A stretch of 64,000 nucleotides of DNA from Eubacterium ventriosum (lineage in GTDB: Bacteria; Bacillota; Clostridia; Lachnospirales; Lachnospiraceae), in assembly GCF_025150745.1 (NCBI RefSeq), contig NZ_CP102282.1:817501-881500 (forward strand), read 5' to 3'. Every line of letters starts with the position of its first letter. The first letter of the stretch is position 1. Position numbers and translations under genes: made by a program. Below are positions 5,436 to 14,179 of the stretch, piece after piece. The notes below the pieces were generated by a model. It saw nothing but the letters and a program-made list of their open reading frames with translations, was not told the DNA's origin and did not search any database.

Positions 5436-5464
5436 TTGACATAAGAAGGAATATAGATTAATCT
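5436..5464 (+). promoter_or_regulatory. Promoter of the acetyltransferase attenuator unit
   Basis: A perfect -35 TTGACA (5436-5441) is followed after 17 bases by TAATCT (5459-5464), about 30 bases before the leader-peptide start. Confidence 0.5.
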
Positions 5465-5492
5465 TATAAAAAAGTTGAAGGAGAACATACAC

Positions 5493-5555
5493 ATGAATCA
5501 GAACTTATATTCAAGATGTTATATGTACATGTATTACGGACGTACACGGCTATAA
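5493..5555 (+). CDS. Leader peptide of the acetyltransferase gene (20 residues)
   Basis: MNQNLYSRCYMYMYYGRTRL follows GAAGGAGAACATACAC, a strong ribosome site. It is Tyr- and Arg-rich (five Tyr, three Arg), and its stop codon lies inside the first stem of the attenuator. This arrangement is known from drug-inducible erm, tet and ABC-F genes, where a stalled ribosome changes the RNA fold. The peptide itself is inferred to be a sensor and not a product. Confidence 0.6.
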   Translation: MNQNLYSRCYMYMYYGRTRL

Positions 5556-5702
5556 AAATGCAAGGTTAGTGCATTAGGTTATAGCTTGTAGGTCTTTTAG
5601 TCTAGTGCATAAAACCAGAATATAAGAGAAGATTTTACATACATTGCATCTTATTAAGTTGGAGAAATCGCACTAGACATTGAATGTTTGGTGCGATTTT
5701 TT
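5549..5702 (+). promoter_or_regulatory. Transcription attenuator with competing stems
   Basis: Three pairings compete. Stem 1 is GCTATAA (5549-5555, overlapping the leader stop) with TTATAGC (5579-5585). The terminator is AAATCGCAC (5665-5673) with GTGCGATTT (5691-5699), followed by TTTTATG. The antiterminator is GTCTAGTGC (5600-5608) with GCACTAGAC (5670-5678), a perfect 9-bp match that would destroy the terminator's left arm. This is direct base-pair evidence for conditional read-through into the acetyltransferase gene. Confidence 0.65.
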
Positions 5703-5728
5703 ATGTTTACAAGAGAGAGGTGCAGAAA

Positions 5729-6700
5729 ATGAATGATTTAATTGAACTGAAACTGATAAAAAGAGAGGATGCAGAATGTTTGTATAAACTGCAGATAGAA
5801 GCATTTATGCCCTTATATGAAAAATATCAGGATGATGCTACAAGTCCAGCAAAAGAAAGCCTTGAAATAATAGAGAAAAAGATAGTTGAGGACAAATCAG
5901 ATTTCTATTTTATTTTGTTTAATGGTGAGAAGGCTGGAGCTGTAAGAGTTAAATGGTATAAAGGTGGAAAAGTATATGAGAATGTAAATTGGATAGCTTC
6001 TATTTTTATTATTCCACACTTTCAAAATAAGGGAATTGCCAGCAATATTATTAAGCAATTATTTACTATCTATCCAAATGCTATCGAATGGAGGTTAGAT
6101 ACGATTAAGCAGGAAGAGAGGAATTGTTATTTGTATGAAAAATGTGGATTTGTTAAAACAGGAGATGAAACAGTTGCAAATGAAAATATGACATTGATTG
6201 ATTATGTGAAAAATTGCATTAGGGTGAGGCGATTTAAGGAAGAGGATACCAAAGAGGTCAGAAATCTTATTGTCAGAAATTTCTTAGAGGTTAACAGTAA
6301 AGATTATGGCATATCAGCAATGGAGAAACTTGCAAAGGGTTACGATGTGGAAAAGATTTTGAATGTGGCAAGTTATGCGCATATGTATGTCTTTGAATTT
6401 GATGGAAAAATAATTGGAACAGGTTCTATCTCAAGTTTTTGGGGAAGTGAAACAGAAAGTATACTTTTGTCCATTTTTGTCCTCCCAGAATTTCATGGAA
6501 AGGGTGTTGGAAGAAAAATCATAAATACTTTAGAAACGGATGAATTTTATGTAAGAGCAAGCAGAATAGAGATACCGGCATCCATTACAGCAACTGAGTT
6601 TTATAGAAAATTTGGATATGATTATAAGAATGGTATTAAGGAATTGGATGATGAGCATCATTACAGATTGGAAAAATTTAAGGAGACAGAATTGAAATAA
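5729..6700 (+). CDS. Tandem-domain GNAT N-acetyltransferase
   Basis: A 323-residue protein made of two GNAT folds that transfer acetyl groups from acetyl-CoA to an amine. The N-terminal domain (about 4-155) has the CoA pyrophosphate loop QNKGIAS (99-105) after the beta-4 strand IASIFIIP. The C-terminal domain (about 163-315) has HGKGVGR (256-262) after LSIFVLP. The ATG at 5729 is chosen because an in-frame ATG at 5684 lies inside the terminator, while GAGAGAGGTGCAGAAA precedes 5729. The leader peptide and attenuator upstream suggest induction by ribosome stalling, so resistance to a translation inhibitor is a reasonable guess. The substrate cannot be read from sequence. Confidence 0.75.
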   Translation: MNDLIELKLIKREDAECLYKLQIEAFMPLYEKYQDDATSPAKESLEIIEKKIVEDKSDFYFILFNGEKAGAVRVKWYKGGKVYENVNWIASIFIIPHFQNKGIASNIIKQLFTIYPNAIEWRLDTIKQEERNCYLYEKCGFVKTGDETVANENMTLIDYVKNCIRVRRFKEEDTKEVRNLIVRNFLEVNSKDYGISAMEKLAKGYDVEKILNVASYAHMYVFEFDGKIIGTGSISSFWGSETESILLSIFVLPEFHGKGVGRKIINTLETDEFYVRASRIEIPASITATEFYRKFGYDYKNGIKELDDEHHYRLEKFKETELK

Positions 6701-6793: not shown

Positions 6794-7144
6794 ATGGAAG
6801 GACAGAAGACAGAATTAAAGATGATACGGATGTCGGAGGTTGAGTCACAGGAAGTGAAATGGCTGTGGTATCCGTTTATACCATATGGGAAGCTGGCAAT
6901 TGTTCAGGGAGATCCGGGCGATGGAAAGACCACATTGGTGTTAAACATAGCAGCAAAGCTGTCAAAGGGAGAAAGTCTCGACAGTGATATGAACGTGCAG
7001 GAGCCAGTGAATTTCATTTATCAGACAGCAGAGGATGGACTGGCAGGACTGTCAGATGATATGGAGTTTTACAAGGGCAAGATTAAGGATATGAGTGATA
7101 GGACAGGCTGTTGCAGGAAAAGGCTGATGATCTGGAGAGTGTGA
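6794..7144 (+). pseudogene. RepA/AAA_25-type ATPase, N-terminal fragment
   Basis: The first ~90 residues match the N-terminus of plasmid/ICE RepA-like AAA ATPases. VKWLWYPFIPYGKLAIVQGD leads into the Walker A loop GDPGDGKTT (39-47). The Walker B segment and the rest of a protein of about 350 residues or more are missing. After KIKDMSDRT the sequence switches to unrelated codons. Another frame across the junction reads RLLQEKADDLESVKRY and on to a stop at about 7220, the C-terminal coil of a different protein. So an internal deletion has joined two mobile-element genes. Confidence 0.65.
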
Positions 7145-9887: not shown

Positions 9888-11117
9888 TTGGCTTTTATTA
9901 TTGCATTGCCTGAACCATTCTGTAACATGGACAAACAGAGGGTATTGAAAGATTTTACTGAGCTGTTTAGAAGAACTTACGGAGTAAACTGCATTGCAGC
10001 AATGCATCACAACAAGACAAAAACAAACTTGCACATTCATTTGATACTTTCAGAAAGAGAAGAATTGAAAAATGGCATAAAGAAAATTGCCACAAGAAAC
10101 ATGTTTTATGACGAAACAGGAAAGCATGTAAGGACCAAAAAGGAGATACTGGATGACATGGGAATGTAAGAAAAGACTGTAACATCATAAGAAAAGGTCA
10201 GGTTTATGAGTACAACAGATTTTAAGGCAAGGTCATTTCTAAAGGGAGTAAAAACATTGTACACTGAGCACATCAATTCCTTCTTAAATGATAAAGATAA
10301 ACTGCAGGTGTTTAACAATAAAGATGTTTATCTGCCAACAAAAAAGATTGGAAAGAACAATCCGAAAGCAGAGCAGATAAGAAGAAACAATCAGGTGAGA
10401 ATGAAGTGGAACAGTACAGTTGATGAAGCACTGTTTTATCAGGTCCCAAGAAAATATATCAGAACCATTAAAGAGGAAAAGATACTTAAGAATGTAAATA
10501 AATTTGGAAAGTCGGAAACAAAGACAGTTGGTGGATTAAGGAAAAACAAGTCATCAAGAGAAAGTGTAGGCGTAGGAATATTTTCCAGAGTTTTTGAAAA
10601 GGCTGTTGGAATGGCATGTGATTGTTTAAAGGGACTAATTAGGATATTTAGAGATGCAATTGCACCAAAGCCACCACAACCGGTTAAGGAGTATAAGCAG
10701 TATGCAAAAATGGTTGATGAATTATTGGAAAATCATAGAGCATTAAACAGAACACAGATGGCAATGAGAGAGACAAAAGACCAAATAGATCGAAAAGAAT
10801 ACGGGATGTTTGGAGGAAAGAAAAAGTTAAAGGATGAAATTGTGCAGTTGGAAAGGCAGGAGAAAACGGCAAGGAGTTTAGAAAACAGATTGTTGAAAAA
10901 ATTAAATGGTGACAGTGTGGATGAAGTTATAAAGAAATTTAACCGAATGAGAATGGAAATGGATGCATATAAAAACTTTGTTGACAGGGCAGAGGATGCT
11001 AAAGAAATGCTGGATGAAAATGTCAGAGAATATATGAAAAATGTGCAGGAAAAGGCATTAGCGGAAGATAAAAGTAAAGATAGACGAGGTGAAGAAAAAA
11101 TGGAATTTAGAAGATGA
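9888..11117 (+). pseudogene. MobA/MobL-family relaxase, truncated and frameshifted
   Basis: Two consecutive frames make one broken relaxase. The first (9888-10169) holds IIALPEPFCNMDKQRVLKDF and the metal-binding motif LHIHLILSERE (HxH), the catalytic core of MOBQ-type relaxases, and ends KEILDDMGM. The reading frame then shifts: a short stretch in another frame reads DCNIIRKGQVYEYNRF and stops. The second frame (10206-11117) continues with KARSFLKGVKTLYTEHINSF and DVYLPTKKIGKNNPKAEQIR, the expected next part, and a long basic coiled-coil tail. The N-terminal ~90 residues with the catalytic Tyr are missing. The element is therefore no longer self-mobilizable. Confidence 0.8.
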
Positions 11118-12651: not shown

Positions 12652-13092
12652 ATGGATCGTTTAACAAAAGAACAACGTCATAGGAATATGAGTAACATAA
12701 AAAACAAAGATACAAGTATTGAGATTAAACTAAGAAAAGCATTATGGGAAAAAGGGTATCGATACAGGAAGAACTATAATAAGCTTCCGGGAAAGCCGGA
12801 CATTGTTCTCACTAAGTACAAAATTGTAATATTTTGTGACAGTGAATTTTTTCATGGAAAGGATTGGGAGAAACTAAAGTTACAGTTAAAAAAAGGAAAA
12901 AATTCAGAATTTTGGATTAGTAAAATATCTAAAAATATAGAAAGAGATGAAAAGATTGAAAAAGAACTGGAATTTATGGGATGGACAGTTATTAGATTTT
13001 GGGGAAAAGATATAAATAAAAATGTTGATGAATGCATTAAAGTTATTGAGGAAAAAATATTCGATAATATGACAGCTGATGATTCATTATAG
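12652..13092 (+). CDS. vsr: Very short patch repair (Vsr) mismatch endonuclease
   Basis: A 146-residue Vsr-family nickase that cuts beside the T of T:G mismatches produced when 5-methylcytosine deaminates. The N-terminus TKEQRHRNMSNIKNKDTSIE is typical. The catalytic segment YNKLPGKPDIVLTKYKIVIF contains the Asp that binds magnesium (D51 in E. coli Vsr). VIFCDSEFFHGKDWEK holds the His/Asp region, and EFMGWTVIRFWGKDI the conserved C-terminal strand-helix. It lies directly before the cytosine methyltransferase gene, its usual partner, with a 19-base gap to that gene's start. Confidence 0.9.
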   Translation: MDRLTKEQRHRNMSNIKNKDTSIEIKLRKALWEKGYRYRKNYNKLPGKPDIVLTKYKIVIFCDSEFFHGKDWEKLKLQLKKGKNSEFWISKISKNIERDEKIEKELEFMGWTVIRFWGKDINKNVDECIKVIEEKIFDNMTADDSL

Positions 13093-13111
13093 GACAGAGA
13101 GGAAATATAAG

Positions 13112-14179
13112 ATGAAATATAGAGCAATAGATTTATTTGCCGGAATTGGTGGAATAAGAAAAGGATTTGATAATGCTTTTGGGAAAAATATAGACACGGT
13201 ATTTGTGAGTGAATGGGATGAATATGCACAGAAAACATATAGAGCAAATTACAAAGATAAGTTTGAAATAGCAGGAGATATCACGAAGATTGATGAAAAA
13301 GATATACCTGAGTTTGATATATGCTTAGCAGGATTTCCGTGTCAGGCATTTTCACTTGCAGGAAAGAGAATGGGATTTGATGATGATTACAAGGGAATGT
13401 GCAGAGGTACATTATTTCAGGATGTTGTAAGAATATGCGAATATCACAAACCAAAAGTTATTTTTTGTGAAAACGTAAAAGGTCTTACGATACATGACAG
13501 AGGAAGAACTTTTAAAGTTATTAAGAGTGCCTTTGAACAGATAGGATATACGGTATACGATAAGGTTTTAAACAGCAAAGATTTTGGTGTTCCGCAGAAT
13601 AGGGAAAGAATTTATATAGTTGCATTCAGAAAAGATATTAATTCTGAAAATTTTGAATTTCCGGTAGGAAATAAACCTGATACATGCATACGTGATATTA
13701 TGGAAGAGCAGGAAGTAAGTGTTAAATATTATCTGTCGACAACATATATAGAAACTTTAAAGAGACACAAGGCAAGACATGCGGCCAAAGGAAACGGATT
13801 TGGTTATGAAATAAGAGATTTAGATGGAAAAGCAGGAGCTATTGTTTGTGGTGGTATGGGAAGAGAAAGAAATCTCATCATAGATAATAGACTTACAAAT
13901 TTTGTACCTGTTACTCATATTAAGGGTGAAGTTAACAGGGAAGGAATTCGTAAAATGACACCTAGAGAATGGGCAAGACTGCAGGGATTCCCGGATGATT
14001 TTAAGTTAGAATTGGCGGATACACATTTGTATAAACAGTTTGGTAACAGTGTAACTGTTAATGTCATTGAAGCAATAGCAGATAAAATTAAAGTGATTCT
14101 TGATGCAGATGAAAAGGCAAAATCCGTTGTAGAAACTGTAAATATCAGGCAAACAAAGAAAGAACGCGCTGTAGGATAA
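13112..14179 (+). CDS. DNA (cytosine-5)-methyltransferase, HpaII-type
   Basis: A 355-residue C5-methyltransferase that protects host DNA from the partner nuclease. The motifs appear in order: I DLFAGIGGIRKGF (8-20), IV GFPCQAFSLAG (74-84, catalytic C77), VI FCENVKG, VIII QNRERIYIVAF, the variable target-recognition region, IX around REWARLQGFPDDF, and X GNSVTVNVIEAIADK. All key residues are present. The start at 13112 follows GAGAGGAAATATAAG; an upstream in-frame start at 13079 overlaps vsr and lacks a site. The companion endonuclease is of the HpaII family, so the target is probably CCGG (inferred). Confidence 0.93.
   Translation: MKYRAIDLFAGIGGIRKGFDNAFGKNIDTVFVSEWDEYAQKTYRANYKDKFEIAGDITKIDEKDIPEFDICLAGFPCQAFSLAGKRMGFDDDYKGMCRGTLFQDVVRICEYHKPKVIFCENVKGLTIHDRGRTFKVIKSAFEQIGYTVYDKVLNSKDFGVPQNRERIYIVAFRKDINSENFEFPVGNKPDTCIRDIMEEQEVSVKYYLSTTYIETLKRHKARHAAKGNGFGYEIRDLDGKAGAIVCGGMGRERNLIIDNRLTNFVPVTHIKGEVNREGIRKMTPREWARLQGFPDDFKLELADTHLYKQFGNSVTVNVIEAIADKIKVILDADEKAKSVVETVNIRQTKKERAVG

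Follow-up and report, generated by a model that had tools for sequence, protein, structure and literature searches.

Ribosome-mediated attenuation of transcription has been described for the bmrB-bmrCD operon of Bacillus subtilis, in which a terminator, an anti-terminator and an anti-anti-terminator are involved, translation of the leader is required, and the inducers are ribosome-targeting drugs (PMC4191407). In the toiL-topAI-yjhQP operon of Escherichia coli, whose products include YjhQ, a putative acetyltransferase, and YjhP, a putative methyltransferase, an upstream ORF senses several classes of translation inhibitors, acting on translation and Rho termination together with a toxin-antitoxin pair (PMC12121999). 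At the erm and cat leaders, the mRNA is switched by an antibiotic-stalled ribosome on a short leader (cited in PMC4191407).

Here, a window of 64,000 nt from the Eubacterium ventriosum genome (contig NZ_CP102282.1, positions 817,501 to 881,500) was analyzed, in which a short leader ORF and an intrinsic terminator precede a gene for a protein with two GNAT domains. This leader defines a new family within an already described type of switch; no report of it, or of leader-controlled GNAT genes in Lachnospiraceae, was found in the open-access literature.

Results

Architecture of the leader region

An initial annotation had proposed that a leader-peptide attenuator controls the GNAT gene, and the leader ORF, its Shine-Dalgarno sequence, a promoter starting at position 5436 and a stem over the leader stop codon (stem 1) were all found where it had placed them (Table 1). 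The 9-bp antiterminator that it described as sharing bases with the terminator is equally apparent: the arms GTCTAGTGC (5600-5608) and GCACTAGAC (5670-5678) are perfectly complementary, and R4 lies within the 5′ arm of the terminator. For the terminator itself, previously given as 5665-5699, a hairpin of 19 pairs was computed at 5662-5702 (−23.7 kcal/mol; z −7.8 relative to dinucleotide shuffles), with U residues directly 3′; a simple terminator scan did not call it. The fold of the whole leader RNA has a z score of −6.6, none of 200 shuffles being equally good, and stem 1 (5538-5555 with 5579-5594) is present in the MFE fold. Further pairings, absent from the initial annotation, join R1b to R3, leader codons 4-7 (P0) to P0c, and codons 10-12 (P0b) to R3. 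No Rfam leader or riboswitch family matched the leader at gathering score.

Table 1. Features of the leader region and the regulated gene (window coordinates)
Feature	Position	Strand	Sequence, partner or extent	Basis or remark
Sigma-70 type promoter	5436-5464	+	TTGACA 5436-5441, 17 nt, TAATCT 5459-5464	Predicted
Shine-Dalgarno sequence of leader	5478-5483	+	AAGGAG	Kept 5′ of leader ATG in relatives
Leader ORF	5493-5555	+	MNQNLYSRCYMYMYYGRTRL and stop	20 codons
P0, leader codons 4-7	5504-5512	+	CUUAUAUUC; partner 5618-5626	C-G to U-A compensations; p<0.0002
P0b, codons Tyr10-Met11-Tyr12	5522-5528	+	UAUGUAC; partner GUGCAUA 5605-5611 without ribosome	Invariant pairs
R1, stem 1 5′ arm	5538-5555	+	Last codons and stop	Folding, comparison of relatives
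R1b, anti-antiterminator	5568-5577	+	Partner R3 once stem 1 is blocked	Folding, comparison of relatives
R2, stem 1 3′ arm	5579-5594	+		Folding, comparison of relatives
R3, antiterminator 5′ arm	5600-5611	+	Also pairs with R1b or leader codons	
P0c, partner of leader codons 4-7	5618-5626	+		Folding and RNAalifold
Intrinsic terminator	5662-5706	+	Hairpin 5662-5680/5684-5702 and U tract	Conserved
R4, antiterminator 3′ arm	5670-5678	+	Inside terminator 5′ arm	
Tandem GNAT gene	5729-6700	+	N domain residues 1-161, C domain 162-323	ATG start

Conservation and covariation of the leader

In bacterial genomes, relatives of the protein were found at 41 loci. The same leader peptide lies 5′ of the gene in L033, L034, L036-L040, L042, L050, L066, and L070, and the same leader lies 5′ of a C-domain-only GNAT gene in L005 and in L043, where the in-frame start has been lost; in L040 the N domain is mostly gone, and the leader and C domain are kept. 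No leader was found in L035, L041, or most single-domain relatives (L044-L048, L051, and the Ruminococcus loci L054-L063), suggesting that the leader is an added module rather than ancestral to the gene. The close-relative consensus is MNQNLHSRRYMYMYYRRxAL, and at most loci a promoter of the form TTGACA-17-TATAyT lies about 28-30 nt 5′ of the leader ATG. The spacing of TTGACA is constant in nearly all relatives, and the −10 element of the window (TAATCT) is a weaker match than theirs. The leader is conserved, as are its promoter, stem 1, antiterminator, and terminator, with compensatory changes; lack of leader conservation, which the initial annotation had listed as counting against its proposal, is thus not observed.

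From an alignment that had not been fitted to structure, RNAalifold predicted 48 pairs, 9 of which show compensatory changes on both sides; compensation is seen in P0, stem 1, and the terminator. The same prediction pairs codons 4-7 with sequence 3′ of R3 and the Met11-Tyr12 codons with R3. In L005, L040, and L070 the sequences of the R3 and R4 arms differ, and their pairing is retained. In a partner-exchange test, each arm was paired with its own partner or with that of another leader (17 leaders less than 80% identical, 5000 permutations). Own partners gave the lower energy for stem 1 (−21.2 vs −15.2 kcal/mol), the terminator (−18.6 vs −14.8), P0 (−12.3 vs −9.1), and R1b:R3 (−12.4 vs −11.0), each with 0 of 5000 permutations as good, and for R3:R4 (−15.8 vs −14.2 kcal/mol, p 0.001); since residual kinship among the 17 leaders is ignored, these p-values are strong but inexact. 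At the peptide level, codon 15 encodes Tyr in 14 of 15 leaders with a variable third base (TAC in 6, TAT in 8), and the terminal Leu is retained through four different codons.

Modeling of ribosome position

The ribosome was modeled codon by codon as a footprint of about 30 nt barred from pairing, on a transcript ended 5′ of R4. Without a ribosome, R3 of the window is paired to the leader (0.73); with the P-site at codons 9-11 it is held by neither the leader nor R1b, the predicted release extending over codons 9-12 (the YMYM stretch); and from codon 13 to the stop it is paired to R1b (0.87-0.96). The comparison of folds with and without a leader ribosome, which the initial annotation had put forward as a check, agrees with its proposal, R3 being free only in mid-leader and the terminator being predicted when the leader is empty or fully translated. 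Similar profiles were obtained for L042, L195, L202, L204, and L207, while L201, L230, and L036 fit the three-state pattern poorly.

When R4 was included at equilibrium, three states were seen in L196, L198, L199, L205, L208, and L228, and L042 and L202 favored R3:R4 at most or all positions. The full-length RNA of the window always favors R3:R4 at equilibrium, which would require a kinetic switch in this RNA; for the window, L042, and L202 alike, the outcome must depend on folding order. In the ON state, a local hairpin limits the free R3 core to about 0.48. In a control in which the downstream part was shuffled, 13 of 300 sequences matched the gain in free R3 of the window at codon 10; hence, the single-sequence model is modest evidence, and the comparative evidence is the main support.

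The region thus combines a promoter, an ORF with a Shine-Dalgarno sequence, an intrinsic terminator, and mutually exclusive antiterminator and anti-antiterminator pairings, and its structure switches with ribosome position in silico (more weakly in L201, L230, and L036). Taken together, sequence comparison and modeling make attenuation by ribosome position very likely.

Range of the leader family and its regulated genes

A covariance model built from 14 leaders, containing no gene sequence, was run against 397 genomes from the family of the window, Lachnospiraceae, at a cut-off of E≤1e-6 (weak matches L213, L215-L221, L231, L232, L257, and L258 were excluded). It matched 23 places in 21 genomes, 18 of them outside the training set; the genome of the window has one copy. 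At 14 of these 18 new places a GNAT gene of one of several types lies directly 3′ of the leader: the tandem form (L195, L202, L203, L208), N-type (L198, L204-L207), C-type (L210, L212), or other GNATs (L200, L201, and L211, whose leader is partial). The initial description of the target as a tandem GNAT is right in that the protein has two GNAT domains, but several other genes carry the leader besides the tandem form.

At the remaining new places are a two-gene ABC exporter 339 nt 3′ of the leader (L197/L241) and, in L235 at 12635, the leader MKHNLHSRRDMDMDLRRIRL followed by a truncated nucleoside phosphorylase gene (12900-13140); L233 is a degraded leader copy, and L209 has a leader without a clear gene. 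The leaders of the ABC exporter (L197) and of a tandem GNAT gene (L195) share 87% identity, indicating that unrelated genes have come under the same attenuator. A second model covered one further genus, where 18 of 79 genomes match: its leader reads MNQRYMYNYMEMMYRxIxL and is followed in 15 of the 18 by a methyltransferase gene or its remnant, in several then by an N-type GNAT gene. Methyltransferase-GNAT operons under the leader are found at L228-L230. A nucleoside phosphorylase gene lies 3′ of the GNAT gene in L193, L199, L207, and L210, and a carbamoyltransferase gene in L192 and L211.

In L004/L227 (1172-1386 and 1501-1698), other coding sequence takes the place of the upstream leader half and R2, R3, R4, and the terminator stay, so that the attenuator contains a joint stemming from recombination or assembly. 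In L206, at about 1700 on the minus strand, the leader start is swapped for sequence ending in GTGGATTGAAAC, like the end of a CRISPR repeat.

No convincing leader match was found in plasmids or phages. The leader motif was absent from 199 phylum-sampled genomes, in a pattern search that would also miss the variant of the window itself. Searches with the pattern TAYATGTAYATGTAYTWY in 391 genomes of the class, and with a TAY-ending form in viral contigs, gave matches of which those translated, apart from that of the window, are unlike the leader; these matches were attributed to chance.

The tandem GNAT protein and its surroundings

The protein of 323 aa has two Pfam GNAT domains with the acetyl-CoA loops QNKGIA and HGKGVG. 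Its N and C halves match separate single-domain proteins in plasmid records, suggesting that two different GNATs were fused; on plasmids only separate GNAT domains occur, with up to 49% identity. In the predicted fold (pLDDT 90.8) both domains are ordinary GNATs, and among the families listed in the fold comparison nothing indicates one particular drug. Among solved structures, the N domain is nearest by sequence to PaiA and spermidine acetyltransferases. Matches of the regulated genes to known resistance families lie far below curated cutoffs, and defense-system models gave no match.

The gene is sporadic, with relatives (E≤1e-20) in 40 of 392 genomes of the order, and sits in a variable region adjoining mobilization and restriction genes. 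Nearby in the window are a protein resembling ribonuclease III that carries a double-stranded RNA binding domain, apparently in a mobile region (1098-2237); an AAA_25 domain protein just 3′ of the GNAT gene, seemingly shortened, perhaps by a frameshift (6794-7144); a MobA/MobL relaxase, apparently in two frames, adjoining the region of the attenuated gene (9888-11117); and a Vsr endonuclease with a C5 cytosine methyltransferase (12652-14179). L235 also has a similar cytosine methyltransferase, about 5 kb 5′ of its tandem GNAT gene.

Discussion

Proposed mechanism and alternatives

Sequence, covariation, and modeling show the elements, the alternative pairings open to them, and a structure that depends on where the ribosome stands; from these we infer stalling in cells, its cause, and the substrate of the GNAT. 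In the proposed mechanism, transcription would start from the predicted promoter. On a leader without a ribosome, the leader codons would pair with R3 and P0c, leaving R3 occupied, and R4 and R5 would form the terminator. A ribosome reaching the stop codon would break stem 1, freeing R1b to pair with R3, again with termination. A ribosome stalled with about codons 9-12 (Cys9-Tyr-Met-Tyr12) in its P-site would cover the codons that mask R3 and leave stem 1 intact, so that R1b would stay masked; R3 could then pair with R4, blocking the terminator, and the GNAT would be made. The most likely cause of the stall would be a small molecule that targets the ribosome, and the same molecule or a related one is what the GNAT would most likely acetylate. 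An antibiotic is a plausible and somewhat favored trigger. The regulated set of GNATs, a SAM methyltransferase, an ABC exporter, and a truncated nucleoside phosphorylase appears to be of the detoxification type, and the occurrence of an exporter and of modifying enzymes unrelated to each other behind one translation-sensing leader fits an inhibitor-induced detoxification set, with bmrB-bmrCD (PMC4191407) and toiL-topAI-yjhQP (PMC12121999) as precedents for inhibitor-sensing leaders; the case for a resistance role of the tandem GNAT is circumstantial. As a whole, an attenuator with an inhibitor-caused stall and a GNAT acting on the inhibitor is the probable explanation.

The position of the predicted ON window, over the YMYM stretch, would also suit an attenuator that senses starvation for tyrosyl- or methionyl-tRNA, with the GNAT handling a related metabolite, and the middles of most leaders are indeed rich in Tyr and Met, including MNQRYMYNYMEMMY from another genus. 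However, such a run is absent from the family leaders MNQRLHSTTHMSIHHRRICL (L201), MQNLHYTTDNMPMCDRRSCL (L210), and that of L235, its pairing with R3 at the RNA level fixes part of it, and no downstream gene serves amino-acid biosynthesis, amino-acid transport, or aminoacyl-tRNA synthesis; more generally, none of the regulated genes is concerned with making or using the amino acid of the leader run. Starvation sensing is therefore unlikely. A further alternative is a general sensor of growth or translation rate for a housekeeping acetyltransferase of the polyamine type, PaiA-like rather than a resistance enzyme: the affinity of the N domain to PaiA and spermidine acetyltransferases would be accounted for, but unrelated enzymes share the same leader and the gene is sporadic, in a variable region beside mobilization and restriction genes, making a housekeeping role quite improbable.

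The peptide might instead be a mere spacer within a riboswitch-like antiterminator answering a ligand or protein, as much of what is conserved in the coding sequence (codons 4-7 and 16-18) can be explained by RNA pairing. This is very improbable given that the Shine-Dalgarno sequence and start codon are conserved, that Tyr at codon 15 and the terminal Leu are kept despite synonymous variation, and that the modeled ribosome position shifts the fold as an attenuator needs, with no Rfam match.

One attenuator, so far confined to Lachnospiraceae and placed 5′ of many unrelated genes of detoxification type (several kinds of GNAT, a methyltransferase, a nucleoside phosphorylase, and an ABC exporter), could mark a hidden, commonly induced resistome against a single class of gut translation inhibitor; this broader reading is offered tentatively and is on balance doubtful. 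The inhibitor might be of nucleoside type, since a nucleoside phosphorylase recurs beside the GNATs and once lies directly under the leader (L235). Were this true, a single RNA leader would serve as a probe listing resistance-like genes of gut Lachnospiraceae that are absent from resistance databases, and one reporter could reveal the common inducer. The interest of the leader family lies in its marking a set of unrecognized genes under one control.

Comparison with known systems

The erm and cat leaders resemble the proposed mechanism in that a ribosome stalled on a short leader switches the mRNA, but they control translation of the resistance gene at its ribosome-binding site, whereas an intrinsic terminator is used here. 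The tet(M), tet(O), and tet(S) genes likewise have a leader ORF and a terminator, there 5′ of a gene that confers resistance to a drug acting on the ribosome; their leader, in contrast, reads ATGCGGCAAGGTATTCTTAAATAA (MRQGILK) and has other stems. A leader of the tet(M/O/S) type was rejected, as the leader model R1 had no match in L222-L225. The toiL operon shares the pairing of acetyltransferase and methyltransferase genes seen at L228-L230, but control of translation and Rho termination and the toxin-antitoxin pair belong to the toiL system; homology to E. coli YjhQ and YjhP was rejected, only short generic motifs being in common. The bmrB-bmrCD operon has, by description, the same control layout, and the leader of L197/L241 also serves a two-gene ABC exporter. 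In contrast to bmrB, which has a GTG start and a terminator inside its coding region, the 20-codon ORF of the present leader ends well 5′ of the terminator, and its targets are mainly GNATs.
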